Of a stretch of DNA of 64,000 nucleotides, positions 2,409 through 29,928 are shown one piece after another; the stretch's first letter is position 1; each line of letters opens with the position of its first letter. A program made the translations under genes and the position numbers. The DNA comes from Thermomonas sp. (GTDB taxonomy: Bacteria; Pseudomonadota; Gammaproteobacteria; Xanthomonadales; Xanthomonadaceae): positions 248,001-312,000 of the forward strand of contig NZ_JAQSDO010000015.1 in NCBI RefSeq assembly GCF_029945965.1. The letters run 5' to 3'. Below the pieces are notes generated by a model. It worked only from the letters and a program-made list of their open reading frames with translations, was not told where the DNA came from and did not search any database.

Positions 2409-3470
2409 ATGACATCCAGGCAATATCGAATCGGAGTACTGGTCGTGCTCGCGGCGCTGTTGGTCGCATTGTTCGGGTTGTTTCGCTGGCAGGACGCGCG
2501 CCTGACCACGGCGGTCGCGGGCGAGCGACTGGAGCAACTGCAGCGGGTGCAGGGCCTGGTGGCCGAGATCGGCCGGCAGGGACTGGAATCGCGTGGCGGG
2601 CAGATCGCCAACAACCAGGGCGTGACCGGTTACGTGGCGCAGGCGCTCGGTGGCTCGTTGCCGGGCGTGGTGTTTGATACCGCATCCCTGGTCGACCTGC
2701 TGCAGGACAGGCGCGACCAGCTCGGTCTTGCGATGGCGGCGGTAATTGATGCGCAGGGCCAGGTCGTGGCCAGCACCGAACCGTTCGCGGCAGGCAACGA
2801 TTTCAGCAAGAACCCGTTGTACCTAGATGCCAGCAAGACCGGCAAGGTGCACACCGGCTTGATGGTCGATGGTGGCCGCCTGCTGCGCGTGTCGATCCAG
2901 CCCTTGGTCGACTACGGCGTTGGCGTGGCGCAGTTGCTGGTGGCCGAACGCATCGGCATCGAGCAGGCGCAGTCCATTGCCGAGATCGGTCATGCCGATG
3001 TGGCCTTGCTGGCCGATACCAGGGATGGCCTGTTGATGGTGGCTTCGACCTTGCCGGCCGACCAGCAGGCCGGACTGCTGGACCAGCTGCCGCAACATGG
3101 CAAGGTCGATGTGACACGCACCGAAATCCAGATGGAAAGCAAGCGCCAGGACGTGTCCGTGCAGCCTCTGTTCGGCCTGCAGCAGGCGCGGCTGGTATCG
3201 CTGGTGCGGCCACCCACGGACAGCGCTTCCTTCCTGGCCTTGCGGTTGCCGTTCCTGATCGCCAGCGGCTTGCTGCTGCTGGTACTTGGCACGGCTGCGT
3301 GGCGGGTCTGGCAGCAGTTGCTGCGCCCGGCCAATGGATTGGCCGAAGTCCTCGAACGTGCCGCGCAAGCCAATGACATGCATATGTCGGCACCGGTTGC
3401 CGGCGCACAAGCGCTGCGCCGCATCGGCACCGCGATCAACCAGATCTTCAAGCAGCAGCAATCGCGATAA
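2409..3470 (+). CDS. Two-TM sensor protein with Cache-like periplasmic domain and HAMP-like tail
   Basis: The 353-residue product has an N-terminal membrane segment (about 8-24), a periplasmic region of about 250 residues resembling double-Cache/CHASE-type sensor folds (with AAVIDAQGQVVAST and SKNPLYLDASKTGKV), a second membrane segment (about 277-298) and a short HAMP-like cytoplasmic tail. It ends there, with no kinase, GGDEF or methyl-accepting output domain. It may signal through a partner or control its neighbours directly. It sits 87 bases after the cupredoxin gene and 57 bases before the DUF3034 gene. A GGGGAAA ribosome site sets the ATG. Confidence 0.72.
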   Translation: MTSRQYRIGVLVVLAALLVALFGLFRWQDARLTTAVAGERLEQLQRVQGLVAEIGRQGLESRGGQIANNQGVTGYVAQALGGSLPGVVFDTASLVDLLQDRRDQLGLAMAAVIDAQGQVVASTEPFAAGNDFSKNPLYLDASKTGKVHTGLMVDGGRLLRVSIQPLVDYGVGVAQLLVAERIGIEQAQSIAEIGHADVALLADTRDGLLMVASTLPADQQAGLLDQLPQHGKVDVTRTEIQMESKRQDVSVQPLFGLQQARLVSLVRPPTDSASFLALRLPFLIASGLLLLVLGTAAWRVWQQLLRPANGLAEVLERAAQANDMHMSAPVAGAQALRRIGTAINQIFKQQQSR

Positions 3471-8385: not shown

Positions 8386-9210
8386 TCAGCCGCCGAGCTT
8401 CATGCCCATCTTCTTGCCCAGATCCTTGCAAGGATCCGGGCGCTGGATGGCAGGAATATGCCGTTCGCTGTCGAACTCGCCCGGCGCGCCTGCTTCTTCG
8501 ACAAACCCGATACTCGATGTCGTCAGGCCCTGCGTGTGCAGCCAGTACGGCACTGCGATGTCGCGGCGCACATGGCCATTGCCGGCAATCAGCACCACGC
8601 CGCGTGAGGCGAATGGGCGCAGGGTTTCGGCCATTACAATGTCGCGGGCAATCTGCGCGCGCGCCATCGGCTCCAGCATTTCGGCCGGCAGCATCCCGCA
8701 ATGGCCAGTGCGTACCTCCTCGATCTGCGGCCCCAACACCCCGCTCGGCAGCGGCTTGTCCAGCCCGTAACGGCTGATCTCGCCCGCATCCAGCGCCGGG
8801 GCGAATCCTTTCTCGATCACCTTGCCGGCATCCGCACGCGACAGGTTGGCGGCCAGTAGCGGCAGCTTGTATTGCATGGCCAGCGCGATCACCGGCTTGT
8901 AGAATTCCCAGTTCCAGCTGGATTTGCCAGGCGCCGCGCGCGCCACCACGCAATCGGCATCGGTGCATTCGCGCAGCGCCGCATCCAGCAGGGCCTGGTT
9001 CTCGCGGTCGAACTGCTCCATCGCAATGGCCGGGCGCCAGCCTGCCTCAACGCGGGCGCGCAATTCCTTGGCGCGCAGGCGGTGGCCTTCGCCGTTGTCG
9101 TGGGTTTCCCCAAGCAGCAGCACATCAGCCGATGCCGCCGGGTCATGGTGCACGCAGCCCAGCAGGACCAGCGGGAGCAGGGCAACGAACAGGCGGTTGG
9201 CATTCGGCAT
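8386..9210 (-). CDS. ChaN-family lipoprotein
   Basis: With the start at the ATG at 9210 the product opens MPNANRLFVALLPLVLLGC, an excellent lipoprotein signal with its Cys at about 19. A longer reading to 9297 lacks this logic. The body matches the ChaN/DUF399 fold: LLLGETHDNGEGH, IAMEQFDRENQ, a middle NLSRADAGKVI and VLIAGNGHVRRDIAVP. ChaN from Campylobacter binds haem, but most family members have no proven role. It ends about 105 bases before the start of the GGDEF gene on the same strand. Confidence 0.85.
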   Translation of the reverse strand: MPNANRLFVALLPLVLLGCVHHDPAASADVLLLGETHDNGEGHRLRAKELRARVEAGWRPAIAMEQFDRENQALLDAALRECTDADCVVARAAPGKSSWNWEFYKPVIALAMQYKLPLLAANLSRADAGKVIEKGFAPALDAGEISRYGLDKPLPSGVLGPQIEEVRTGHCGMLPAEMLEPMARAQIARDIVMAETLRPFASRGVVLIAGNGHVRRDIAVPYWLHTQGLTTSSIGFVEEAGAPGEFDSERHIPAIQRPDPCKDLGKKMGMKLGG

Positions 9211-9313
9211 GGCAGGTCCTGACGGTGGATCGGTGGCTGGAACTTTTATACGAATGAGACAGGATAACGCGCGCGCTACAATCGGCGGTCCCCGCAATCA
9301 CTGATGCCAGCGT

Positions 9314-12300
9314 ATGAGCAGTCCCGCCGAAACCCTGCCCGCAAGCCAGCCCACCGCTCTTGATGAGAGCCGTTCCCCGCTGCGCTTCGTCACCGCCGCC
9401 AGCCTGTTCGACGGCCACGATGCCGCGATCAACATCATGCGGCGGCTGATCCAGGCGCAGGGCGCCGAAGTGATCCATCTCGGCCACAACCGCAGCGTCG
9501 AAGACGTGGTCCGTGCCGCGTTGCAGGAAGACGCCGACGCGATTGCGCTGTCCAGTTACCAGGGCGGGCATGTCGAATACCTGAAGTACATGGTCGACAT
9601 GCTGAAAGAACGCGGCGCCCCGCACATCAGGATCTTCGCCGGCGGTGGCGGCACGATCACGCCAGAAGAAATCCGCGAACTCCAGGCCTACGGCGTCGAG
9701 CGCATCTACCACCCCAATGACGGCATGAAGATGGGGCTGGTGGAAATGATCGAAGACGTGGTCAAGCGGGCGGGTGAAAACCGCGGTCAGCGTGACGTAA
9801 AAAGGGGTCAGAGAACAGTTTCCTCCCCAACAGAGCTTGAGTCGGATGTGGTGTCGGAGGAAATGTTCTCCGTAAAAAGGGGTCAGAGAACAGTTTCCTC
9901 CCCGACAGCGCTCAATTCGGATGTGGTGCCGGAGGAAATGTTCTCTGACCCCTTTTTACCTTCCATCGAAAACGAAATCGCCATCGGCCGCGCGCTGTCC
10001 GCGATCGAAGACGGCACCCTGTCCGAAGCCGAGCTCTCCAAGCAGCGCAAGCAATGGCAACTCGCCAGCCGCAAGACCCCGGTCATCGGCATCACCGGCA
10101 CCGGCGGCGCTGGCAAGTCCTCGGTCACCGACGAACTGCTGAACCGCTTCCTCGCCAGCTTCCCGCAGATGCGTATCGCGGTGATCAGTGTTGATCCCAC
10201 CCGCCGCCGTAGCGGTGGCGCCTTGCTGGGTGACCGCATTCGCATGAACTCGCTACGCAGCCATCGCGTCTACATGCGTTCGATGGCCACGCGTCGGCAG
10301 AACGTCGCCACCAATGCGGTGCTGAAAGATTGCATCGGTTTCCTCAAAGGTCTGGGCTACGACTTGGTGATCGTCGAAACCGCCGGCATCGGCCAATCCG
10401 ATTCGGAGATCGTCGACCTGGTCGACTTCCCGATGTACGTGATGACCAGCGACTACGGCGCGGCGTCGCAGCTGGAGAAGATCGACATGATCGACTTCGC
10501 TGAGCTCATCGTGCTCAACAAGTACGACAAGCGCGGCGCCGAAGACGCACTGCGCGACATCCGCAAGCAATGGAAGCGCAACCGCGTCGCGTTCCAGACC
10601 AAGGACGAAGACGTTCCGGTCTATCCGACCATTGCCAGCCAGTTCAATGACCCCGGCATCAGCTGGATGTTCAGCAACTTGTGCAGGTTGCTGAAAGCAA
10701 AATGGGAGTCGAAAAGGGGTCAGGCCCATTTTTCGGCCGAGGAGAAAAGGGGTCAGACGCATTTTTCGGCCGATGACAATGATCCTGCCGGAGACAACGT
10801 CCGAAAACATGCCTCTGACCCCTTTTCGATGGTTCCTCACATCGACACCACCCTGAAAGAACCCCGCGCGACAGTGCTGATACCCGGCGCTCGCACGCGC
10901 TACCTGTCCGAGATCGCCGAGCAGGGCCGTAGCATCAACCGCCAGATCGAAACCCAGGCCGAAACCGCCGACCGCGCGCAGTCCTTGTGGCAGGCGTTGT
11001 CGGAATTGGGCGATGCCGAATTGCCGGCTGCACTGGATATCTACGGCGCCGATGCGCTCACCGATGCCCCCGACCGCAGCCTGCTCACACTGCGCCAGCG
11101 CTACAACGACGCCATCCAGTCGCTCACCGCCGAAAACATCAAGCTGCTACGCGCATGGCCGCAGCGATTGAAGTCGATCACCGACGAGATCACCGAATAT
11201 AAGGTGCGCGACAAGACCATCCGCGTTGAGAACTACACCACTTCGCTGAGTCACCAGAAGATCCCCAAGATCGCCGCGCCCACCTACCGCGGCTGGGGCG
11301 ACTTGCTGACCTTCCTCGGCAAGGAAAACCTGCCGGGCAGCTACCCGTACACCGGCGGCGTGTATCCGTACCGCCGCACCGGCGAAGACCCGATCCGCAT
11401 GTTCGCGGGCGAGGGCACGCCGGAGCGCACCAACCGCCGCTTCCACTACCTCAGCGTCGGCCAGCCCGCCGCGCGCCTGTCCACCGCCTTCGACAGCGTC
11501 ACCCTGTACGGCGAAGACCCCGCGCCGCGGCCGGACATCTTCGGCAAGATCGGTAACTCCGGCGTCAACATCCCCACGCTGGACGACATGAAGAAGCTGT
11601 ACTCCGGCTTCGACCTGTGCGCGCCCACCACCAGCGTGTCGATGACCATCAACGGGCCGGCGCCGATGATCCTGGCGATGTTCATGAACACCGCTATCGA
11701 CCAGCAAATCGAGAAATACCTGAAGGCCGATGACACGCGTTGGGCCGATGCCGAAAAGACGATTGCCAAGCTGTTCGATGGCCGCGAACGTCCGCAATAT
11801 TCGGGTGAATTGCCGCCGACCAATGACGGTCTCGGGCTTGGCCTCCTCGGCGTGACCGGTAATCAAGTGGTCGATGCCGACACCTACGCCCGCATCAAGG
11901 CGGACACCCTCAAGACCGTGCGCGGCACCGTGCAGGCGGACATCCTGAAAGAAGACCAGGCGCAGAACACCTGCATCTTCAGCACCGAATTCGCGCTGCG
12001 GATGATGGGCGACATCCAGCAATACTTCGTCGACCACGGCGTGCGTAATTTCTACTCGGTCAGCATCTCCGGGTATCACATCGCCGAAGCCGGGGCCAAC
12101 CCGATCAGCCAGCTCGCCTTCACCCTGAGCAATGGCTTCACGATCGTGGAGTACTACCTGGCGCGCGGCATGTCGATCGACGACTTCGCGCCCAACCTGA
12201 GCTTCTTCTTCAGCAACGGCATGGACCCGGAGTACACCGTGATCGGCCGCGTCGCCCGCCGCATCTGGGCGCGCGCCATGCGCGAGCGTTACGGCGCGTC

Positions 12301-13090
12301 CAGCCGCAGCCAGATGATGAAGTACCACATCCAGACCAGCGGCCGCTCACTGCACGCGCAGGAAATCCAGTTCAACGACATCCGCACCACGCTGCAGGCG
12401 CTGTACGCCCTGTTCGACAACTGCAACAGCCTGCACACCAATGCCTATGACGAAGCCATCACCACGCCGACCGAAGAGTCCGTGCGCCGCGCGGTGGCCA
12501 TCCAGATGATCATCAACAAGGAACTGGGCCTCAACTTCAACGAGAACCCGTGGCAGGGCAGCTTCGCGGTCGACTACCTGACCGACATGGTGGAAGAGGC
12601 GGTCTACAAGGAGTTCGAAGCCATCAGCGAGCGCGGCGGCGTGCTCGGCGCCATGGACACCATGTACCAGCGCGGCAAGATCCAGGAAGAGTCGATGTAC
12701 TACGAACACAAGAAGCACGACGGCAGCCTGCCGCTGGTCGGCGTGAACATGTTCCTGCCCAAGGAACACGCTGGCGAGATTGCGACCGAGATCGAGCTGA
12801 TCCGTTCAACCGAAGAAGAGAAGGGCCAGCAGATCGCCAACGTCAAAGGCTGGCAGGACTCACGCAATGCCCTGGCGCCGGTTGGGGAGACCGCGCACGG
12901 CCATATGATCGAAGACGAGAGCGGGGCGAGTGAACCGCACGACGGTCATGGATTGGGGTATTTGCAGCAGACGGCGCGGGATCGCAAGAATGTGTTCGAG
13001 GCGTTGATGGAGGCGGTGAAGACGCATTCGTTGGGGCAGATCTCGCATGCGCTTTATGATGTGGGTGGGGAGTATCGGAGGAATATGTGA
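9314..13090 (+). CDS. icmF: Fused isobutyryl-CoA mutase IcmF with two repeat-derived in-frame insertions
   Basis: The 1258-residue product has the full IcmF order. An N-terminal B12-binding domain (about 20-155) carries [10 protein letters not shown]. The MeaB-like GTPase chaperone domain has Walker [10 protein letters not shown] (about 262-270) and NKYD. A C-terminal mutase TIM barrel contains YPYTGG (about 677) and [11 protein letters not shown], which mark isobutyryl- rather than methylmalonyl-CoA mutase. The enzyme interconverts isobutyryl- and n-butyryl-CoA using adenosylcobalamin. Unusually, two stretches (about residues 163-215 and 467-505) are encoded by palindromic GGGGTCAG repeats, read as KRGQ...SDPF. 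Both fall at domain junctions, and the frame is open, so the protein is probably still functional. Confidence 0.95.
9799..9957. repeat. Tandem palindromic repeat inside icmF
   Basis: Two copies of a 75-base unit (starting 9797 and 9872) open with AAAAAGGGGTCAGAGAACAG and end GGAGGAAATGTTCTC. The second copy closes with the full CTGACCCCTTTTT arm. The 75-base period keeps the frame and encodes [12 protein letters not shown]...EEMFS twice. Confidence 0.93.
10712..10826. repeat. Second palindromic repeat inside icmF
   Basis: Two opening arms (GGGGTCAGGCCCATTTTTCG and GGGGTCAGACGCATTTTTCG) and one closing arm (CGAAAACATGCCTCTGACCCC, split by a mismatch) lie in frame. They encode [18 protein letters not shown] and ASDPF. 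It sits at the end of the GTPase domain, before the linker to the mutase barrel. Confidence 0.9.
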
Positions 13091-13103
13091 TTCAGTACAC
13101 CTG

Positions 13104-13128
13104 AAAAAACGCGTGGTTTTTTATTTCA
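13104..13128 (+). terminator. Possible weak terminator after icmF
   Basis: An AAAAAAC / GTTTTTT inverted repeat around GCGTG, followed by ATTT, lies 15-40 bases after the icmF stop. The stem is short and A/T-rich, so its strength is doubtful. Confidence 0.35.
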
Positions 13129-13150
13129 GTTTGAAAAAGGCAGATCTCAA

Positions 13151-16100
13151 ATGGCAATTGATGTAGACGAAACTAAGCCAGACATCTTAATTTGCCACTT
13201 GTCAGATCTCCATATTCGTACGGCAGAGTCTATTGCACTAAGTCGAATGTCAGATATCTCGGGCGCAATAGGCAGTCTCGTGACCAGACCGACAGCCGTA
13301 TTGTTTCTAGTATCCGGAGATCTGGCCTTTTCAGGAAAGGCTGAAGAGTATGATCTTGCCACGACGGCACTAGAGAAGCTAAAACAATCTCTAAAAGCAT
13401 GGCCGGTCGAGAGCAGTCATGTATATGTGTCGCCAGGGAATCATGATTGTGATTTCTCAAAAATATCAACCACAGTTCAATCTGCGTTGATAAACGACAT
13501 CCCCGAAGTCGCCGGCTTGGAGACGGATTCAATTATAGGGGAGCTGAGCCGAACTCAAGTGGACTTCACGCTCTTTAGGGATGTGGTTTGCTCGCCTATG
13601 CAAGCTCATGGATCGATACTGAGTCGTACTCGTATCGATCTCAATGGAAGATCAATTGCGATCTATGCGATCAATACGGCATGGACCTCTAAAAATCCCG
13701 AAACCCCAGGCGCACTCCGGATGCCAAAGGACGTCTTGCCTAATGATATGGACGAAGCGGATCTAGCTATTGCGATTGCACATCATCCCCTTAATTGGTT
13801 CTCGCCGCAGGACGCAAGATATCTTTCGCATTGGCTGGACACTCATGTTGACATGACTTTCTGGGGCCACGAACACGCGATTGACGATTTCGAACAAATT
13901 CGCGGTAAGTTCGGATCCAAAGTGAAGCATTTGATCGCCTTACCGATTGACGATAGAGAAAGTGAATGTGGATTCTCGTGTTTAAAAATTAGCGCGACGG
14001 AAGGTGGTTTGCAGAAAACAGATTTTCACTGGAGCGGGGCGGAGTTGCGCTTGAAGTCGGAACACATTGGAGAAATATGCCCGATGAATCCGGCACGCCT
14101 CTTAGGGAAAATTCGATTTACTAGCACGTTCGAGGATTTTTTAGATGATCCAGGGGCGTTTCTCAAACATCCTCAACTTAGCCGACATCTGCGGCTATCA
14201 GAAGTATATGTTCATCCTGAATTCCGTACGGTTGATTCTGCGAAGAGCGAATCCGTCAAGCTAACGAGCAGTGTAACGACGTCTGATTTAATTGATGCTT
14301 CCACCGCATTTGGAAAGGTTATAGTATTTGGACAGGAGCAGTCTGGAAAGACCACATTTGCTAAGACGCTAGTCAGTGAGCTACGGCATAATGGAAGCAT
14401 TCCTATTTACCTCGACTTTGCCACTCTAAGTAGTGCTAATAGGGGTGAAATAAAGACCTGGTTCAGGTCTGCATTGTCAGCTCAATATGAGCGCGACGCC
14501 CACGATGAAATCTCACAGCTAGAATCGAAACGTCGCTTCGTCGTGCTCGATAACCTTCAGTCGGCCCCAGCAGGTTCAACGGGTATTGCACGGGTTTTTG
14601 AGTTAGTTACAGCATGGGCAGATAGAATAATTTCACTTACAAGCGCTTCGCCGGCTATTACTGTGCTTTCTGCCGAAATTGAAGGTGATCAAGATTCGGC
14701 ATACTGGCGTGGCTCCAAGATTTTCGAGATTCTTCCGCTTTCTCATAAGCGCCGCGGGGAATTAATCAGGAAATGGGTGGAGATTGGTAGGTCGGACTCG
14801 ATAACTCCAGAGCAAATCGAGCATGAAACCAGACAAGTCAAATCCGTGATCGATGCCTGGCTGGGCAAAAATTTTCTACCCCGATTCCCAGTATTCGTAC
14901 TGATCGTGCTTCAGCAAATGGACGTGGGCCGTCAGCTGAAATCTGTGATTTCGAATGGATCGCAAGGATTTCTCTTTGAAGCACTCATTACTAAGGCGAT
15001 TGAAGGGCATGTCCATAAGCACCCTATCAACACGGTCCGTGATTTTTTAAGTGAATTCGCAGCTGCGTTGTGGGTAAAAGATGCGGCTTATCTGAGTACG
15101 GCTGATGTGGCCAGCTTGAGAGAAAAATTTGCTGCAAGACTGGTCACGGTTAGTTCGGATATTTTGTTAGAAGAGCTTGTTGAAGCCAGATTAATTGCTG
15201 TCGATGCTAGGGGTATGGCCTTTCGTTACCCGTATTTATATTATTACTTTTCAGCACTTTGGATTTCTCGGCTCAAGGACGTTGAGCGAGATATTGAAAT
15301 CAGGCGGCATGTGGAGTTTGTTAATACTGAGCGCTCCGCAAATATTCTTACCTTCCTGGCCCATTTAGAAAAACATCATGAAGTATTAAAAGTTTTACTT
15401 CCCATGGCGTCGAGCCTATATTCTGAATCGACTCAAGGTACTTTGAGTGAATACTCAAAAATATCAGTTCGATACCGCACCGCGGCGGACCGTCAAACAT
15501 TGATGCTAGGTAAGCCTGATCAAGTTAGCGACTACATGCACGATGAGCGCGATCGTATGGATGGAATGATCGAAGGTCGGGAGGATGTGGGGAACGGGTC
15601 TCAGTTGGAAGACACATTCAAATTGAATACGGCTATCAAATCGATCCAAGTGCTGGGTCAGATTTTGAAAAGTAGGGCTAGTGGTTTTGAAGCGGACGAG
15701 AAAGTATTAATAGCTAGCGAGTCAATGAAGCTTACTCGAAGAATGCTCTCATTCTTCTACAAGATAATTTATGAAAATGCGGATATGTTTGTTCATTTCG
15801 CGTCAGATGCTTTTGAGAGAGCATTAAAAATTGACAAAACAGAAGCCGCTAATATTGCAAATGATTTCATAGGATTGCTAGTGGTTGGATTCGGGAAGGT
15901 GTCAATTTCGATAGTAGGAGAGGCGCTTGCTTCCCCAGAGCTACCGTTGTTGATTTCTAGACTCGAGAAAGATGCTGCCGACGATGAAGATTCAAGATTG
16001 ATGTTGCTGGCGGCTAGACTGATAGCTGATCCAGAGTACCCGTCTCACGCAGTTATCGAATTCAATAGCGGCTTGAAGCCCGCGAATGTTCTGGCGCACT

Positions 16101-16240
16101 CAATACTCGGATGGTTGGTTGCTCGACGATTTCATTTAGATCCACCCGATCATGCTGTTCGGGATCAGGCATGCAAACTCCTAGGAATAGAAACGAAGCG
16201 CCTTCCAGCGCGGCTGGTCGGCGCCGGAGGCAAGTCGTAA
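13151..16240 (+). CDS. Metallophosphoesterase-STAND NTPase fusion, candidate defence protein
   Basis: The 1029-residue product has an N-terminal calcineurin-like phosphoesterase with all five motifs intact: SDLH (D19, H21), SGD (D57), GNHD (N97-D99), a His pair at 211-212 and GHEH (240-242). A P-loop NTPase follows, with GQEQSGKTT (about 394-402, K400) and a Walker B RRFVVLDN (D467). FRYPYLYYYFSA (about 690-705) resembles the winged-helix end of STAND/NACHT-like modules. The last 320 residues look helical and could be the sensor. Bases here are visibly richer in A/T and codon use differs from neighbours, which suggests recent transfer. By analogy to STAND defence proteins, a trigger could release the phosphoesterase to attack nucleic acid or nucleotides. 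That role is inference. Confidence 0.85.
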   Translation: MAIDVDETKPDILICHLSDLHIRTAESIALSRMSDISGAIGSLVTRPTAVLFLVSGDLAFSGKAEEYDLATTALEKLKQSLKAWPVESSHVYVSPGNHDCDFSKISTTVQSALINDIPEVAGLETDSIIGELSRTQVDFTLFRDVVCSPMQAHGSILSRTRIDLNGRSIAIYAINTAWTSKNPETPGALRMPKDVLPNDMDEADLAIAIAHHPLNWFSPQDARYLSHWLDTHVDMTFWGHEHAIDDFEQIRGKFGSKVKHLIALPIDDRESECGFSCLKISATEGGLQKTDFHWSGAELRLKSEHIGEICPMNPARLLGKIRFTSTFEDFLDDPGAFLKHPQLSRHLRLSEVYVHPEFRTVDSAKSESVKLTSSVTTSDLIDASTAFGKVIVFGQEQSGKTTFAKTLVSELRHNGSIPIYLDFATLSSANRGEIKTWFRSALSAQYERDAHDEISQLESKRRFVVLDNLQSAPAGSTGIARVFELVTAWADRIISLTSASPAITVLSAEIEGDQDSAYWRGSKIFEILPLSHKRRGELIRKWVEIGRSDSITPEQIEHETRQVKSVIDAWLGKNFLPRFPVFVLIVLQQMDVGRQLKSVISNGSQGFLFEALITKAIEGHVHKHPINTVRDFLSEFAAALWVKDAAYLSTADVASLREKFAARLVTVSSDILLEELVEARLIAVDARGMAFRYPYLYYYFSALWISRLKDVERDIEIRRHVEFVNTERSANILTFLAHLEKHHEVLKVLLPMASSLYSESTQGTLSEYSKISVRYRTAADRQTLMLGKPDQVSDYMHDERDRMDGMIEGREDVGNGSQLEDTFKLNTAIKSIQVLGQILKSRASGFEADEKVLIASESMKLTRRMLSFFYKIIYENADMFVHFASDAFERALKIDKTEAANIANDFIGLLVVGFGKVSISIVGEALASPELPLLISRLEKDAADDEDSRLMLLAARLIADPEYPSHAVIEFNSGLKPANVLAHSILGWLVARRFHLDPPDHAVRDQACKLLGIETKRLPARLVGAGGKS

Positions 16241-16262
16241 ACCGGGACTGTAAAAAAGGTAC

Positions 16263-16393
16263 AAAACAGGGGTCAGAGTCGACTTTTTCAGAGTCCAAAA
16301 AACAGGCAAAAAACAGGGGTCAGAGTCGACTTTTCCAGATTCCGTCTGGGCTGAGTTCGCCGGGAATCAAAAGTCGACTCTGACCCCTGTTTT
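16263..16393. repeat. GGGGTCAG palindrome cluster, GTCGAC sub-type
   Basis: Two opening arms CAGGGGTCAGAGTCGACTTT (16266 and 16313 regions) and one closing arm AAAAGTCGACTCTGACCCCTG (split at 21 bases) flank a spacer with the phrase CTGGGCTGAGTT that recurs at other GTCGAC copies. It joins directly to the coding part of the HNH gene. Confidence 0.88.
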
Positions 16394-16439
16394 CAAGCGA
16401 TACGCGCCATTACAGCCAAGTGGGCGCGGGCTGCAGAGC

Positions 16440-17030
16440 GTGTACCTCACCAACGTCCCAGAATCACTCGTCTTGGAGCTTGCTGACTTAATCGGTCACG
16501 AGGCTCGTATTATTCTTCGGGGCAGCAAAGTGGCTGATGCCGAGACCTTGCCCGCTGTGGGCCTAATTCAATGGGAAGAGCATCAACTGGCTGAGGTGCG
16601 ACACGACTCGACGATAACGGAGACAACGAGGCAGGCGGTGGTGCAGGCGCGTCGCGGCCAAGGCCTTTTCAAGCAGCGGGTCATGAAGATTGAACGCCGC
16701 TGTCGTCTCACCGGAGTCGATCGCCTTGAACACCTTCGGGCTAGCCATTGCAAGCCATGGCGCGATGCAGACAACACCGAGCGCTTAGACGGCGAAAACG
16801 GCTTGTTGCTTACGCCAGACGCCGATCATCTATTCGATCGTGGTTTTTTGAGCTTTGAAGATTCGGGAAAAGTCCTTGTGTCCCCCGTCGCCCATGTAGC
16901 GTCACTGAGCGCTATGGGTCTGGACCCCTCCTCACTAAAGAATGTAGGTGCTTTCTCTTCAGGGCAGCGGAGCTATCTGCGTTTCCATCGAGAAAACGTG
17001 TTTCTTCAAGCCCGGCTGCGGGGTCGGTGA
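16440..17030 (+). CDS. HNH endonuclease-like protein, native start lost at a repeat
   Basis: The 196-residue product contains an HNH-type nuclease region: CRLTGVDRLEHLRASHCKPW, DGENGLLLTPDADHLFDRG (HNH_2-like). The only start available is GTG at 16440. The codons before it (16395-16439, KRYAPLQPSGRGLQS) are in frame and look like real N-terminal protein of this family. They run straight into a palindromic repeat with no ATG or GTG, so the native start appears to have been cut away by the insertion. It may be silent or started from a poor codon. Such HNH proteins are often orphan restriction enzymes, and its position after the metallophosphoesterase-STAND gene fits a defence-type cluster. Confidence 0.7.
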   Translation: MYLTNVPESLVLELADLIGHEARIILRGSKVADAETLPAVGLIQWEEHQLAEVRHDSTITETTRQAVVQARRGQGLFKQRVMKIERRCRLTGVDRLEHLRASHCKPWRDADNTERLDGENGLLLTPDADHLFDRGFLSFEDSGKVLVSPVAHVASLSAMGLDPSSLKNVGAFSSGQRSYLRFHRENVFLQARLRGR

Positions 17031-17118
17031 AAAAAGGGGTCAGGTACATTTTTCTCTGACCTTGGGTCGGCCGCGTCGGCGCACTTTCAAATCGCGCTTG
17101 GTGAGCTCCTCGGTCTGG
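17031..17118 (-). pseudogene. RAYT 3' tail remnant with GGTACATTT foot
   Basis: AAAAAAGGGGTCAGGTACATTTTT is followed by minus-strand codons resembling the C-terminal tail of RAYTs (pattern ...ELTKRDLKVRRRGRPKV). The rest of the transposase is gone. The same tail recurs near 20.6, 23.1, 24.8, 29.4 and 34.6 kb. Confidence 0.65.
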
Positions 17119-17212
17119 AAAAAAATGGTACGGCACACGTCGAAGTGCTCGATACGCGCAAAAGTATTAAGGCGCATTATTTACCTTATCGATACAAGTG
17201 TCTACATCTGGC

Positions 17213-17441
17213 AAAAAGGGGTCAGAGAACATTTCCGTTTGAATTGCTCCGCGGAAAACAGGGGTCAGAGTCGACTTTTTTCAAACTGAGTCGGGACTGA
17301 GTTGGGCAGGGATCCGGGAATAAAGGGTCAGAGAACATTTCCGTTTGAAACGTGCAGGAAAAAAGGGGTCAGAGAACATTTCCGTTTGAATTGCGCCGCG
17401 ACGTGAGGGTGCTTCGAGGAAAAGTTCTCTGACCCCTTTTT
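17213..17441. repeat. Nested cluster of GGGGTCAG repeats
   Basis: In order: an AGAGAACATTTCC half (17213), an AGAGTCGACTTTT half (17257), another AGAGAACATTTCC half (about 17327), then a complete palindrome at 17359-17441 closing with AAAGTTCTCTGACCCCTTTT. The recurring CCGTTTGAA(A/T) phrase is part of this sub-type. Confidence 0.88.
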
Positions 17442-17640
17442 GCGTGAGTGTCTGCCCACATTCGCAACTAGAGCGTATGCCTCCCATCGGCATTGGGCGG
17501 GTGGCGTGGTCAGAAATGTACCTGACCCCATTTTTGCCACTGTATGACAGACTTTCGGAAAGCCTCGGTGCGACTCATAAGGAGTGTCTGGTGACTACAC
17601 GCTACACGCCATCCGGTATACGAATGCGCCTTCATGGTTC
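17357..17640. repeat. 284-bp exact duplication, copy 1
   Basis: Identical by eye to 20623-20906. It covers one full palindrome, a RAYT 5' leader with AAATGTACCTGACCCC, and the first 50 bases of the alpha/beta hydrolase gene with its ribosome site. Identity ends abruptly at both sides. Confidence 0.9.
17514..17535. repeat. Closing arm of GGTACATTT sub-type
   Basis: AAATGTACCTGACCCCATTT, the same closing arm that bounds the RAYT remnant at 29.9 kb. The 70 bases before it (GCGAATGTGGGC and GGCATTGGGCG on opposite strands) match the 5' leader of that RAYT. Confidence 0.75.
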
Positions 17641-18197
17641 GAAAGCGGGAACATTGAACTGGCTGCTCTTGCCAGGTGGCCCTGGCCTTGGTTCGGAGAG
17701 CCTGACGGAACTCGCCGATGCGCTGGATGTGCCTGGTTCCGTCTGGCTGGTTGATCTTCCCGGCGATGGGTCCAACGTGGCGCGAGATGATCGTGAAGTG
17801 TTCGGAAGTTGGCCGGGGGTCATCGTTGAAGCGGCCAAGGAGGTTTCCGATGCGATTTTTGTCGGTCATTCGACCGGCGGCATGTACCTGCTGGCGACAG
17901 CGGGACTGCATGGCTTAATCTGCGGCCTGGTTTTGCTCGACACGGCGGCGGACTGCTCCTGGCATGCGCAGTTCGTGGCGATGACCCGGAAGCATCCCTT
18001 GCCGGCATTTGATCAGGCTGCCGCGGCGTACGAGCAGGAGCCTTCCGCTGCGAACCTGATGCGTCTTGCGGTGGCCTCGGCCGAATGGAACTTCACGCCG
18101 AAAGCGCTGGATGCCGGTCGCGCATTACTCGCACGGTTGCCATACAACGGCGATGCTGTCGCTTGGTCCGAAGCGCATTTTGATCACACCTACAAGG
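17591..18197 (+). pseudogene. Alpha/beta hydrolase, 3' end lost at RAYT insertion
   Basis: Starting at GTG 17591 behind AAGGAG, the product opens VTTRYTPSGIRMRLHGSKAG. It shows alpha/beta-hydrolase marks: LLLPGGPGLGSESL, the nucleophile elbow VGHSTGGMYL, and an acid-region strand LVLLDTAAD. Native sequence stops around FDHTY at 18197, where a palindrome and the RAYT follow. The remaining open frame to 18490 is only antisense RAYT sequence. The catalytic His and C-terminal helix are missing, so the protein is probably dead. A copy of its first 50 bases occurs at 20857-20906. Confidence 0.82.
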
Positions 18198-18282
18198 AAA
18201 AACAGGGGTCAGAGTCGACTTTTCCAGAGTGCGTCGGGTCTGAGTTGGCTCGGCAACAAAAGTCGACTCTGACCCCTGTTTT
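18198..18282. repeat. GTCGAC-type palindrome at RAYT 3' end
   Basis: Arms AAACAGGGGTCAGAGTCGAC and GTCGACTCTGACCCCTGTTT surround a spacer with GGGTCTGAGTTGGCTCGG. It overlaps the last codons of the RAYT and supplies its TGA stop. Confidence 0.9.
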
Positions 18283-18976
18283 GCTTCTGCTGTTGTTTCC
18301 TGGGCCGCCCGATTTTTTGTGGGCCCACGGTTCTTCCAAGCTGAGCCTCGATTGCCAGCCTGAAGCGATCTTGTGCGTAGGGGTGCTGGCGTTGCAGGTG
18401 ACAGCGGATGGCGTCCACTTCTTCGGCATCAACTGCCGTCATCACCATGGCACGGTAATGCTGCTGACGTTTTGCGGTATCAGTCGATAGCGCCAAGTAT
18501 TCCGGATGAGGCGTGAGTAGGCTGTCGCTCTCGCCAAAGGCCAGTGCTCGATGGCTGGACCAACGATAGTCGCGCGGATCGGCGACCATCGCAGCGCGCA
18601 TGGGGTTGAGTTCGACGTAGCGGTGGCAGTGCATGAGGTAGCCGCCGTCGCCGACCAGACTGGATTTGTAACGTCCTTCCCACAGGGTGCCGCTGCGGTG
18701 GTATGTGGCGTTGATGTATCGAACATAGCGCCGCCCAAGAGCCTGCATAAGGCGTGGGACGGCGCCTTTCGCCGTTGGCGTCAGCAGCAAGTGGACATGG
18801 TTCGTCATCAGCACATACGCATGGATCGCGCAGCCCTCGCGGCGGGCCATGTCACGCAGTTCGCTGCGATAGCACAGGTAGTCAGCGTCGTTGAAGAAGC
18901 ATGGCTGGCGGTCGTTGCCCCGTTGAACGACATGTTGCGGAATACCGGGAAGATCTATTCGCAGTGGACGAGGCAT
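18209..18976 (-). CDS. REP-associated tyrosine transposase (RAYT, Y1/HUH family), complete
   Basis: The 255-residue product begins MPRPLRIDLPGIPQHVVQRG. It has the IS200-like HUH motif TNHVHLLLTP (H60, H62) and the likely catalytic tyrosine in CHRYVELNP (Y120). RAYTs are single-strand transposases that recognise REP hairpins. This one is flanked by GTCGAC-type palindromes (18198-18282 and 19062-19115). The C-terminal codons RGQSRLLLPSQ...WKSRL are read from the palindrome, which also gives the stop, so gene and repeat are physically one unit. It is inserted into the alpha/beta hydrolase gene. It is the only intact RAYT seen and the best candidate to have moved the repeats. Confidence 0.93.
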   Translation of the reverse strand: MPRPLRIDLPGIPQHVVQRGNDRQPCFFNDADYLCYRSELRDMARREGCAIHAYVLMTNHVHLLLTPTAKGAVPRLMQALGRRYVRYINATYHRSGTLWEGRYKSSLVGDGGYLMHCHRYVELNPMRAAMVADPRDYRWSSHRALAFGESDSLLTPHPEYLALSTDTAKRQQHYRAMVMTAVDAEEVDAIRCHLQRQHPYAQDRFRLAIEAQLGRTVGPQKIGRPRKQQQKQNRGQSRLLLPSQLRPDALWKSRL

Positions 18977-19061
18977 AGCAATTGGCAGCGTGATAAGTCA
19001 TAGGCAGGGTGCCTCGCAACGCTTCACAGACCCATCGGGAAAGTTCGTTTGCCGAGGTCAG

Positions 19062-19115
19062 GAAAGTCGACTCTGACCCCGGTTTTCAGGAAAGTCGACT
19101 CTGACCCCTGTTTTT
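19062..19115. repeat. Two closing arms of GTCGAC sub-type at RAYT 5' end
   Basis: Two near-identical arms, each AGGAAAGTCGACTCTGACCCC, stand in tandem (19063 and 19089). They face the arm at 18198 across the RAYT gene and mark the far edge of the element. Confidence 0.85.
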
Positions 19116-19151
19116 GGCAGAGCACTCGGCGTTACGGACGCGCTTCGGTAG

Positions 19152-19176
19152 GAAATGTACCTGACCCTATTTTTGG
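19152..19176. repeat. Lone closing arm, GGTACATTT sub-type
   Basis: GAAATGTACCTGACCCTATT stands alone between the RAYT and the VCBS gene. No opening partner is nearby. Confidence 0.65.
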
Positions 19177-19240
19177 GAATGACGTTCTAAAACATGGGAG
19201 AATTCTTTAGGGCTTTGGACCACCAGGGGATGAATTCGAG

Positions 19241-20554
19241 ATGTCGCCACTACGTCACGCGCTGTACGCAACTTTCATCGCATTTTTCGCCAGCCTGGTA
19301 GCGGGTTGTGGCGGGGGTGGGGGCGGCTCGTCATCGGGAACTGGAACAGGCGGTGGTGGGCCCATCGTCAATCCACCTCCACCTCCACCAAGTAATTCCG
19401 TCAACAGAAATTTCAGCTTCAATCCTCTCAAGCAATACCCGCCGCAGCTCGTGAATCAGGAAGGCAAGTACTGGGGTGCGGCCGTGGCGATCGGGGATGT
19501 CACCGGGGATGGACGCCCAGATGTTGTGATGACCACGGAAGGAACCGAGCAAACCTCTACGCCCAGCTTGATCAGTCAAGTCATGGTGTTCCCGCAATTG
19601 CCGGACAAGACGTTGGGGGAGCCTGTTCACGCGCCCTTCCTCAGTCACTATGCTTGGGCTACCACCGGCATGGCGCTCGGTGACCTCGACAACGATGGCG
19701 TACAGGAAATCCTAGTCGGTCATCAGGATGGTCTGTCCATCGCGAAATTCCGACCCAGCACAAATAGCCTGGAAATGGTGACGTTGCCGGACCCGGTGGG
19801 CTATTCCGCTGTCACTACCGGAGATTTTGATGGCGATGGCAAGGTGGATGTCGTGGCACAGACCTGGTCCAGTGGTGCCGTGTTGTATAAGGGCGACGGA
19901 ACTGGAGGCCTGCTGCGCTTCAAGGATCTGGCGACACCGCTTGCAGGGTACAACCGGATAATTGCTCGTGACATGAACAAGGACCAGAAGCCTGACCTGG
20001 TGATGACCAATGGTCAGGGTTTCGCGTTCTGGTACCTGATGCTGAACGAAGGAAACGGGACGTTCGCGGCGGCAACGTCGAATGCAATCCCGAGGCGTAC
20101 GCCCATCGATTGGCCTTGGATGGCGCGGGGCGTGGATACCGCTGACCTGAATGGCGATGGTCGGCCGGACGTGGTGACCAGCCTCGTCTCGAATAGGCCC
20201 GCGGGAATTGCCGTTTATCTTGCGCAGGCGAATGGGGGATATCAGCTGGATAAGGTGCTTGACTCGTTCGACATACCCGAGCCGGTGGTCATTGCAGACC
20301 TTGATGGAAACGGATTGAAGGACATCATCACGCTGCACGGCGGGTTCTTCAACATGGGTTATTACTTGCAAGGCCCTGGCGGTTTTGAGCCGGAAACGAT
20401 GGTTACCGTTTCGTTGACAGCCTTTCCCACCTCGCATTACAGGCCTGACGGCTTGGCCGCTGGTGACATCAATTCTGACGGTTGTATTGATGTCGTGTTG
20501 GCCGATTACCAACACGGCCTTCTGGTTCGAACGGGCGCCAAGTGCAAGCGTTGA
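19241..20554 (+). CDS. VCBS/FG-GAP beta-propeller lipoprotein
   Basis: The 437-residue product has a lipoprotein signal (FFASLVAGC, Cys about 23), then a Gly-rich and Pro-rich linker and about seven blades. Each blade has a calcium-binding loop of the type DxDxDGxxD: DVTGDGRPDVV, DLDNDGVQEI, DFDGDGKVDVV, DMNKDQKPDLV, DLNGDGRPDVV, DLDGNGLKDII, DINSDGCIDVV. This integrin-alpha-like propeller is likely displayed outside the inner membrane. Ligand and role are unknown. It is flanked by repeats on both sides and seems a single transcription unit. Confidence 0.88.
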   Translation: MSPLRHALYATFIAFFASLVAGCGGGGGGSSSGTGTGGGGPIVNPPPPPPSNSVNRNFSFNPLKQYPPQLVNQEGKYWGAAVAIGDVTGDGRPDVVMTTEGTEQTSTPSLISQVMVFPQLPDKTLGEPVHAPFLSHYAWATTGMALGDLDNDGVQEILVGHQDGLSIAKFRPSTNSLEMVTLPDPVGYSAVTTGDFDGDGKVDVVAQTWSSGAVLYKGDGTGGLLRFKDLATPLAGYNRIIARDMNKDQKPDLVMTNGQGFAFWYLMLNEGNGTFAAATSNAIPRRTPIDWPWMARGVDTADLNGDGRPDVVTSLVSNRPAGIAVYLAQANGGYQLDKVLDSFDIPEPVVIADLDGNGLKDIITLHGGFFNMGYYLQGPGGFEPETMVTVSLTAFPTSHYRPDGLAAGDINSDGCIDVVLADYQHGLLVRTGAKCKR

Positions 20555-20571
20555 CCTTTTTCGGTTTTTGA

Positions 20572-20624
20572 GAAAAAACGGGTCAGATACATTTTTTCTT
20601 GAGGCGGGGTCGGCCGCGTCCGGG
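20572..20624 (-). pseudogene. RAYT tail remnant
   Basis: AAAACGGGTCAGATACATTTT is followed by CTTGAGGCGGGGTCGGCCGCG, a short degraded copy of the RAYT C-terminal tail (RGRP codons on the minus strand). Confidence 0.5.
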
Positions 20625-20906
20625 AAAAAAGGGGTCAGAGAACATTTCCGTTTGAATTGCGCCGCGACGTGAGGGTGCTTCGAGGAAAAGTTCTCTGACC
20701 CCTTTTTGCGTGAGTGTCTGCCCACATTCGCAACTAGAGCGTATGCCTCCCATCGGCATTGGGCGGGTGGCGTGGTCAGAAATGTACCTGACCCCATTTT
20801 TGCCACTGTATGACAGACTTTCGGAAAGCCTCGGTGCGACTCATAAGGAGTGTCTGGTGACTACACGCTACACGCCATCCGGTATACGAATGCGCCTTCA
20901 TGGTTC
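20623..20906. repeat. 284-bp exact duplication, copy 2
   Basis: Matches 17357-17640 base for base as far as read. It contains a full AGAGAACATTTCC palindrome (20625-20707), the RAYT-leader closing arm (20780-20801) and the first 50 bases of the hydrolase gene. A fresh palindrome begins two bases after the duplication ends. Confidence 0.9.
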
Positions 20907-20907
20907 C

Positions 20908-21040
20908 AAAAAAGGGGTCAGAGAACATTTCCGTTTGAAACGCGCCGCGATGTGAGGGCGGGAAAAGGGGTCAGAGAACATTTCCGTTTGAAACGCGCCG
21001 CGATTCGGGGTGCATTGGGGAAAATTTCTGCCCCCCTTTT
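20908..21040. repeat. Two AGAGAACATTTCC repeats in tandem
   Basis: Two opening arms (20908 and 20962 regions), each followed by CCGTTTGAAACGCGCCGCGA, and one decayed closing arm AATTTCTGCCCCCCTTTT. Confidence 0.82.
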
Positions 21041-21142
21041 GTGCGCGAACCCTGACCGGTCTCGCGGCATTTGCCCGTTGGTATGAGGGCGTCGAAATAA
21101 AAAATTCCTGCATGCGCAGGTAAAGCGACTGATTGAGAGTGC

Positions 21143-22234
21143 ATGCAATCGCGAAACACCAAGGAATACATCGACTACCTGCACGGCTTTCGTGGCATTG
21201 CCATCCTGGCGATCATGGCTGCACATGCCTGGTCCATGCTGGGTCAGGAGGCCTAGTCAGGGCTTGGCGCGCAGTTCGACGTGCTCGCGTCCGGCGCCGA
21301 TTTCCGGATTCTTTACGCAATGACCGAAGGGTTATTCCACGGCACCACCCTGTTCTTTGCGCTGATCTCCGGAATCCTGTTTACGCGGGTGTTGCGCGGC
21401 ATGCCGTGGGCCAGGTTCTATCTCAACAAGTTCACCAACGTGATCCTGCCTTACCTCGTGGTGTCGACCGTGCTTGTCGCATTACAGTGGCCTCAGGTCG
21501 TTGCATACCTGAAGGCGAACGACCTCCAAGACTCATTCCTGCACGTGCTGCTCCTCAACGTCGTGACCGGATCCGCGGAAGTACAGTTGTGGTACATCCC
21601 GGTGCTGGCGGTGCTATTCGTGATGACGCCGGCGCTAGAAGCTATGCTCAGGTTCCGCAATGGCGTCCTGCTCCTGTTGCTGGCTCTGGTGCCGCTGGTC
21701 GTGTCTCGCACGGTTTCGCCTCACATGCTGAGCGTCAATTCGGTCATCTATTTTCTCGGTGCGTATGGGTTTGGCATGTACCTGGGTGAGCGGCTCGAGG
21801 CGATGCTGGCACTCGTGCGAAATTTCCGGGCGTTGATGTGGGCTGTGTTCTTGATTAGCCTGGTAGCGAACTTCTGGTTGTTTCTGTCGGGTTACACGCC
21901 ATCAGGGTTCTTTTCGCTGCAAGAAAGTGTGGTCTATCTCAACAAGATATTGGCAGCGCTTCTGATCCTCGAGCTCCTGCAAGCACACGAAGATCGGATG
22001 CCAAGGCTTCTGCAGACCTTGGGCACCTACGCCTTCAGCCTTTATTTTCTGCATTTCACCGTAATGGTGAACCTCGACAAGGCGCTGGTCCAGGCTTGGC
22101 CGGGCATGAGCGTGGTGGGCGTCGCCGCCGGTGCCCTCGCTATTTATCTTGTCAGCATTACCTTGACGCTGATGCTGTGCATCATGTTGAAGAAACTGTT
22201 CGGCCGCTATTCGCGGATGCTGATCGGCGCCTGA
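21143..22234 (+). pseudogene. Acyltransferase-3 family membrane protein interrupted by an amber codon
   Basis: From ATG 21143 the frame reads MQSRNTKEYIDYLHGFRGIA, the classic start of acyltransferase-3 proteins with the conserved RG and a later His. It meets TAG at 21254-21256 and then continues in the same frame to 22234. The downstream part has about nine membrane segments (LFFALISGILFTRV, ILPYLVVSTVLV, ILALLILELL and others). A separate start at 21281 would give a 317-residue protein lacking the N-terminal motif. The whole would be about 363 residues, normal for O-acetyltransferases. One base change or a sequence error would explain it; suppression of the amber codon is less likely. Confidence 0.8.
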
Positions 22235-29330: not shown

Positions 29331-29928
29331 GGGGTCAGGTACATTTTCCCATGAGCTTGGGTCGCCCGCGTGGCCGAACTTCGAGCTCGCGCTCGGCAAG
29401 CGCCTCGATCTGCAGCCGAAACCGTTCGCTGCCCCGGATTTTCTGCTGGTTGGTTGCCAGGCGCAACGCGTTCGCGTCGTTGTCAGACAGGCCTTCGTCG
29501 AATAGGTGCTGGTAAGTCTTTTGCTGTTCCGGCTGTTCCGCGTCGGTGGCGCCAAGCGCGCGGTAGGTTGGATGCGGGTTGATCCGAGGATCGTGCACGC
29601 CGTTCGCGTTGCAAGCATGGCTTGACCAACGGTAGTCCAGGGCAGTCGCTACCATGCCGGCGCGTATGGGGTTGAGTTCGATGTAGCGGTAACAGGCGAG
29701 GACGTACCGCTCGCTGTCCACGAGCGCTGACTTGAAGCGACCTTCCCGCAAGGTGCCGGTACGTCGATGCCGCACTGGACAATATGTTGCGCGATACCGG
29801 GCAGGTCGATTCGGGGAAGGCGGGCCATGTGCTTGAATCGAGGTGAGGACCCGCGCACATTCGCAATTAGCTCGTAGACACATACTCGGCATTGGGCGCG
29901 TGCCTTGGTAAGAAATGTACCTGACCCC
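29331..29928 (-). pseudogene. Internally deleted RAYT with both terminal feet
   Basis: Bounded by GGGGTCAGGTACATTTT (29331) and AAATGTACCTGACCCC (29913-29928). Reading leftward: a leader of about 90 bases, the start MARLPRIDLPGIAQHIVQ (29.83 kb), then a jump in another frame to RRTGTLREGRFKSALV, YIELNPIRAGM, and the tail RLQIEALAERELEVRPRGRP. The HUH region is deleted, so the transposase is dead, but Y-motif and tail remain. It defines the ends of this sub-family: leader plus gene plus tail between inverted feet. Confidence 0.85.

Follow-up and report, generated by a model that had tools for sequence, protein, structure and literature searches.

The window analysed here, a stretch of 64,000 nucleotides from a Thermomonas genome, carries an icmF gene whose product scored 1610 bits against the NCBIfam model NF045497 (cut-off 1500), and Pfam placed in it a B12-binding domain (aa 24-127), a MeaB GTPase domain (aa 248-425) and an MM_CoA_mutase domain. 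Two palindromic elements, both of them dimers of GGGGTCAG arms, lie in frame in this apparently intact gene, one in linker 1 (INS1) and the other in linker 2 (INS2), and a tyrosine transposase gene sits 5.2 kb downstream (Table 1). The earlier note on this DNA described the INS1 element; the observation was right but too narrow, as it missed the second element, the transposase gene, the third linker (INS3) and the recurrence across the order. Because the same pattern recurs across the order, the icmF insert is not a one-off; the inserts are real, in frame and recurrent.

Table 1 Features of the icmF and transposase region, in window coordinates
Feature	Position	Strand	Location or basis
icmF, fused isobutyryl-CoA mutase/GTPase, 1258 aa, reads through both elements	9314..13090	+	NCBIfam NF045497, Pfam
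Opening arm, probably decayed, from an older element of the AGTCGAC-type variant	9777..9796	+	Linker 1; local alignment
Partial first 75-nt copy, with opening arm, loop and truncated closing arm	9796..9870	+	Linker 1
Complete palindromic element with closing arm	9871..9959	+	Linker 1 (INS1)
Second in-frame element (partial 33-nt copy and complete copy)	10711..10828	+	Next interdomain linker, linker 2 (INS2)
Third linker (INS3), palindrome-free in the window, other palindrome classes in relatives	10991..11143	+	
Further arms and elements, three variants	16257..17541	.	Between icmF and transposase
Element flanking the transposase gene, AGTCGACT variant	18193..18288	.	
RAYT/TIRYT-type tyrosine transposase gene (Y1_Tnp)	18284..18976	-	Pfam PF01797, E 2.7e-14
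Two arms, AGTCGACT variant	19060..19120	.	Other side of transposase
Further arms and elements	20619..20999	.	Beyond transposase

The INS1 insert consists, as the note had described, of two 75-base units and a full closing arm: the tandem copies at 9796-9870 and 9871-9945 are 92% identical, and the closing arm at 9936-9959 shows 96% complementarity with each of the opening arms across 24 nt. The reported stop-free read-through was likewise seen, the reading frame being open throughout 9314-13090, and the insert (approximately aa 162-216) indeed falls between the B12-binding and GTPase domains, while its size, given there as about 53 codons at 9799-9957, is corrected to 164 nt at 9796-9959, or about 55 codons. 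When folded as RNA, 177 nt spanning both copies reached -85.8 kcal/mol (z = -8.05 against dinucleotide shuffles), and the DNA fold of the full copy gave z = -8.38 against such shuffles. The sequence GGGGTCAGA was present at 25 sites in the window against 0.42 expected. The possibility that the INS1 palindrome is a chance structure was ruled out by these fold scores near -8 and by the excess of GGGGTCAGA sites. An Rfam search of 9000-21500 found no known RNA family at the gathering score.

Between two alignment blocks at site 1, the solved IcmF structure 4xc6 has 21 residues against 69 in the window, and at site 2 it has 17 against 53; the domains of IcmF are described as joined by a linker in the accessible part of PMC10481361. 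An AlphaFold2 model of aa 1-640 (mean pLDDT 71.4), built on an alignment of the window protein and 41 hand-picked sequences of 76 usable relatives, had pLDDT values below 50 at aa 170-206 and 472-501 and also at aa 298-313 in the GTPase domain; in the inserts, low values are to some extent to be expected, as residues at these positions are present in few of the aligned relatives. Foldseek ranked IcmF structures at the top with this model, with an rmsd near 27, so the domain arrangement was not matched. The gene right after icmF (13151-16240) resembled the NCBIfam anti-phage protein DS8 over nearly its full length (710 bits, below the cut-off of 790), and on this match it is likely a defence gene.

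We compared icmF genes from the best 80 of at least 584 relatives in named genomes and from 25 genomes of the same genus, the window genome included; four named loci duplicating genus genomes were dropped, leaving 101 genes, and four fragments were then dropped, leaving 97. When palindromes were required to have arms of 20 nt or longer, with no more than 2 mismatches per 16 and a loop not exceeding 110, all 46 in these 97 genes lay in the three linkers (INS1, 12; INS2, 17; INS3, 17), which make up 41 of 345 kb, and none was found elsewhere in 304 kb. With a laxer cut of 16-nt arms, palindromes were seen outside the linkers too. The bounds of INS1 and INS2 were taken from the window insert, whereas INS3 was bounded after the palindromes there had been seen, and therefore its share is not an independent test. 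At least one such palindrome was present in 36 of the 97 genes and none in the remaining 61. Elements of the GGGGTCAG type were seen in relatives at INS1 and INS2; none was seen at INS3 in this icmF sample. INS3 was filled instead by other classes, by eye GTAG-type repeats and CCTCTCCC or CGTCATCCC palindromes (e.g., L034, L038, L076, L089 and L090). Along the icmF tree, the presence of GGGGTCAG-type elements changed 8 times at INS1 (11/97 rows) and 8 times at INS2 (13/97 rows), palindromes at INS3 changed 15 times (18 rows), and variant states changed 11 and 12 times at INS1 and INS2, these counts being made from hand-set states, with gain and loss not told apart, on a quick tree (a similar tree had 22 of 94 inner branches open).

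The residues of the window insert occurred in no other gene of the 80 relatives and 25 genus genomes, and alignment, the check proposed in the note, showed them to be absent from 4xc6, from G009 and from the other genes compared. G009, which of all rows has the highest identity to the window (92% across 1090 tree columns), has a short linker at both sites. The same residues without palindromic DNA, which the note had named as the sign of a native linker, were looked for in the relatives and not found; where relatives have GGGGTCAG-like peptides at these sites, the DNA is palindromic or decayed palindromic. A native linker was thus ruled out by the relatives together with the short linkers of 4xc6. 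Linker length varies for other reasons too, since long linkers without palindromic DNA exist (e.g., L039 and L075).

Across the same 25 genomes, neither of two control genes, malic enzyme and valS, contained a GGGGTCAG-type pair, and the idea that any large gene takes up these elements was rejected on these controls. The malic enzyme genes had at most one chance arm each and valS had none. These sets included some partial genes (two for malic enzyme, three for valS), the valS query was without one end and the malic enzyme label (NF009501) was assigned at 1126 bits, under its cut-off of 1178. A weaker 19-nt repeat was present in one gene of each control set. Other palindromes were found in frame in 3/25 valS genes (L261, L262 and L263, from three genomes of the same genus), indicating that icmF is not the only gene to hold palindromes in frame.

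The arm has a recurrent build: an A-rich start, GGGGTCAG, a variable stretch of about 7 bases and a T-rich end, followed by a loop and then the reverse complement. By eye, the variable stretch distinguishes the variants AGTCGAC, AGAACAT, AGTGAAT, GTACATT and GTTCACT, and also GGACAAT, which follows GGTGTCAG. In the 3.24-Mb window genome (G000), GGGGTCAGA occurred at 102 sites versus 3 for a reversed control, and 100 of the 102 were taken further. Opening-closing pairs were formed at 41 sites in the window and in the own-genome stretches around these 100, and the stretches contained 75 GGGGTCAG clusters, some of which are chance single sites; across this genome the arm repeats occur as singles, dimers and clusters. 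Among the 46 GGGGTCAGA sites listed on the contig, 25 were within 15 kb of the transposase, against 1.1 expected under an even spread. Of the 16 paired elements found across 20 neighbourhood stretches totalling 369 kb, 18 of which include icmF, 10 were inside that gene. Elsewhere in the window genome, ORFs spanned elements in 12 cases at ten loci, of which three were tested with Pfam and the rest were by eye intergenic or spurious. One further short GGGGTCAG-type element lies in frame in thiL (L143, ~3001-3044; TIGR01379, 334 bits, cut-off 184), and the C-terminal tail of scpB (L132, ~3001-3073) includes an element that opens in another frame than the icmF elements do.

The transposase scored 68.1 bits against NCBIfam NF047646 (REP-associated tyrosine transposase), below the cut-off of 80, and Y1_Tnp was its sole Pfam domain at E values up to 10. 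When GGGGTCAG-like sites were counted up to 500 nt away from 24 transposase loci of the genus, 11 loci had them on both sides, 9 on one side and 4 on neither, the pattern being loose enough that some sites may be chance. Among the 17 icmF neighbourhoods readable in the genus, 11 had a transposase within ~5.5 kb of icmF (the window genome, G001-G004, G010, G011, G014, G015, G019 and G020), and nine of these carried an icmF element, versus none of the six without a transposase match (G005, G006, G007, G009, G013 and G017; Fisher p 0.0023). The two exceptions with an element-free icmF were G003 and G014. G009 has one arm just after icmF, and G013 has three arm-like sites further on. G008, G012, G016 and G021, in which contig breaks or missing genes interrupt the neighbourhood, stood outside this test although they carry icmF elements (G016 one arm only); G018, G022, G023 and G024 were likewise not part of it. 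When relatedness was taken into account, the link between neighbour and element was not significant (4 independent pairs, on average 2.9 concordant and 0 opposite). The arm variant beside the transposase was the same as that in icmF in 5/9 genomes (permutation p 0.009, with hand-set variant lists), and in the other four, including the window, the two differed. G005 has 182 GGGGTCAG sites (reversed control 60) with neither a transposase match nor an icmF element. The link fails to hold outside the genus: GGGGTCAG-type icmF elements were present there at eight loci (L049, L051, L054, L063, L074, L079, L080 and L084), in whose flanks of up to 4 kb a transposase was found only at L051, as a fragment, and a transposase match without such an element was seen at L042, L068 and L108 (full-length) and at L041 (fragment). 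In view of the loci outside the genus and the relatedness test, we do not claim the neighbouring transposase as a proven cause.

The reading frame of the elements was constant. All 22 opening-closing arm pairs in icmF among the 101 genes were in one frame and all had lengths of 3n+2 (two pairs in the window share one closing arm; L054, L063, L074 and G016 were too damaged or incomplete to be included), whereas the same arm phase was seen in 10 of 39 pairs outside icmF, a few of them weak, in the window and own-genome stretches. The frame used is stop-free with a GRAVY of -1.07, as is a second frame with a GRAVY of -0.31; in the third frame, every one of the 22 pairs contains a stop. The earlier remark that the frame avoids the TGA of the closing arm is correct for the frame used, but one other frame avoids it too. 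The possibility that stops force the frame was rejected because the second frame is open in 22/22, so stop avoidance alone does not fix it; it can be fixed by selection that favours a hydrophilic linker, or be inherited when one element replaces another in place.

We consider it fairly probable that palindromes linked to a transposase have repeatedly entered tolerant linkers of icmF and that only the in-frame outcomes have survived. In this view the inserts are inverted-repeat dimers like those on either side of a RAYT/TIRYT-type tyrosine transposase gene, and this enzyme or its relatives, whose part is likely, may move or copy such dimers with a local bias. Some would land in or on the disordered linkers of a nearby icmF, where an insertion would survive if it preserved the frame and encoded a hydrophilic peptide without stops, and would otherwise be lost. 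Later arm variants would then land in or beside earlier elements and replace them without a change of frame, which may give rise to the tandem and nested structures. The peptide, if made, is probably a neutral, tolerated piece of linker.

Nested remnants were seen at several sites. The decayed arm at 9777-9796 resembles an arm in the same linker of G004; its alignment to the G004/G001 arm scored 14, while the best of 1096 control windows of the same gene scored 9. By eye, G008 has a full element followed by an apparent closing-arm remnant of another variant, and the element of G011 sits between short ends like those of the element of G021. These remnants suggest, at the level of sequence, that newer elements replace older ones in place.

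Such succession could also come about by recombination instead of transposition, with one old insertion per linker and later variants swapped in through shared arms by gene conversion or interspecies transfer, which would account for the constant frame as well. Consistent with this, G002 and G011 have an identical 86-nt element despite flanks that are 12-13% diverged (119/135 and 250/288 identical), the loop of this element is otherwise absent from the 25 genomes except for a two-mismatch match in G010, and G021 has a related loop with both arms changed (70/86 identical to G002). The window loop in turn matched exactly only its own two copies, with two-mismatch matches in five other genomes; copying of a whole element from another site was therefore not seen, because the two icmF loops searched occur essentially nowhere else in the 25 genomes. 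However, INS1 and INS2 are separate sites, the hand-set states count 8 presence changes at each and the 11 and 12 variant changes given above, and the distance of the elements from the native codons varies, so that we regard a purely recombinational origin as doubtful.

It is improbable that the inserts are kept because they are useful, either as an mRNA hairpin that slows ribosomes between domains or as a longer linker that aids domain movement. The confinement of all strong palindromes to the linkers, the very stable hairpin and the closer match of the variable 12 nt of the arms within an element (0.875 identical) than between elements (0.651) would fit this, but the 61 genes without such a palindrome and the freely varying sequence and length of the peptide speak against it, and recent mobility also predicts paired arms. 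That icmF is decaying and tolerates insertions as a gene no longer needed is very improbable, as nothing beyond the insertions themselves points to it and the 1258-aa frame is intact, above the IcmF equivalog cut-off, with icmF matches in 25/25 genus genomes (some truncated where a contig stops). It is hardly credible that the linker is natively variable or the assembly faulty and the palindrome due to chance or error: linker length varies in palindrome-free relatives too, but this reading is largely contradicted by the fold scores, by the tandem copies differing at 8% of positions and by the same kind of insert in assemblies of other species.

Beyond repeated entry of transposase-linked palindromes, it is possible, and we put it forward tentatively, that the icmF linkers are a standing coding home for these elements, holding live coding copies, with newer variants invading the reading frame in place of older ones and the transposase next door feeding the site in one genus. 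If true, a family of miniature mobile elements would have in a host gene both a protein-coding landing pad and a reservoir.

In-frame palindromes are already known, from Rickettsia palindromic elements (RPEs) and from REPs within ORFs. In the accessible parts of PMC3733652 and PMC6006769, TIRYT transposase genes are flanked by inverted repeats with the motif GGGGWSAS, which GGGGTCAG fits, and in the window GGGGTCAG arms lie on both sides of the transposase gene. The TIRtrons of PMC3733652, as far as its main text describes them, are like the window in having a Y1 (IS200-like) tyrosine transposase gene, flanking GGGGWSAS repeats and singles, dimers and groups dispersed in the genome; they are probably the same as TnpAREP subclass 2.1 of PMC6006769, which in the accessible text has an additional C-terminal helix-turn-helix domain. 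The main texts of both papers, where accessible, describe no in-frame TIR dimers in a host enzyme, reuse of linkers or succession in place. Intragenic GTAG/CGTC REPs are reported in the main text of PMC3733652 as palindromes inside ORFs. Some of them recur at roughly one position, as in recB of X. campestris and X. oryzae, some genes hold two, and icmF is absent among the genes named there; these REPs carry a tetranucleotide tag, whereas by eye the window icmF arms are without it and start with an A-rich run and GGGGTCAG. The same text describes RPEs as in-frame parts of genes whose protein products are likely functional. Like the window elements, RPEs are palindromes in frame inside apparently intact genes, but in other organisms. 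To our knowledge, their sequences differ from those of the window elements. REPINs are mainly intergenic, whereas the window repeat is coding and without a REP tag. In the accessible part of PMC3116915, REPINs are like the window elements in having two inverted repeats that form a hairpin and in being RAYT-linked. A text search for the motif gave 187 papers, and 30 of these, judged by their titles, seem to deal with other subjects. The icmF case was not found in searches of open-access full text or in parts of PMC3733652, PMC6006769, PMC2817692, PMC3116915 and PMC10481361, and the recurrence and succession of palindromes at one gene look new.

With the same linkers filled or empty in close relatives, icmF offers a natural, replicated experiment on how mobile palindromes become protein, in a system with several element families and a candidate enzyme nearby. 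Two open questions become testable here: do RAYT/TIRYT proteins move the repeats that belong to them, and do coding copies remain mobile? The case is also a warning that linker length in such multidomain enzymes can stem from mobile DNA and not from function.

Some smaller features of the neighbourhood were also observed. About 197 nt that include a gene start (hydrolase-like by eye) at ~17444-17640 are repeated at ~20710-20906, where the second copy is interrupted by elements, and this repeat suggests a local duplication around the elements. At 18200-18290 the transposase frame stays open into the flanking element (QNRGQSRL), which is thereby read in the same frame as in icmF. A second RAYT-like gene at 29356-29784 is frame-shifted, apparently without the HUH part and 41% identical to the intact one, and the arms on either side of it are of the GTACATTT variant, as though every transposase had an arm variant to itself.
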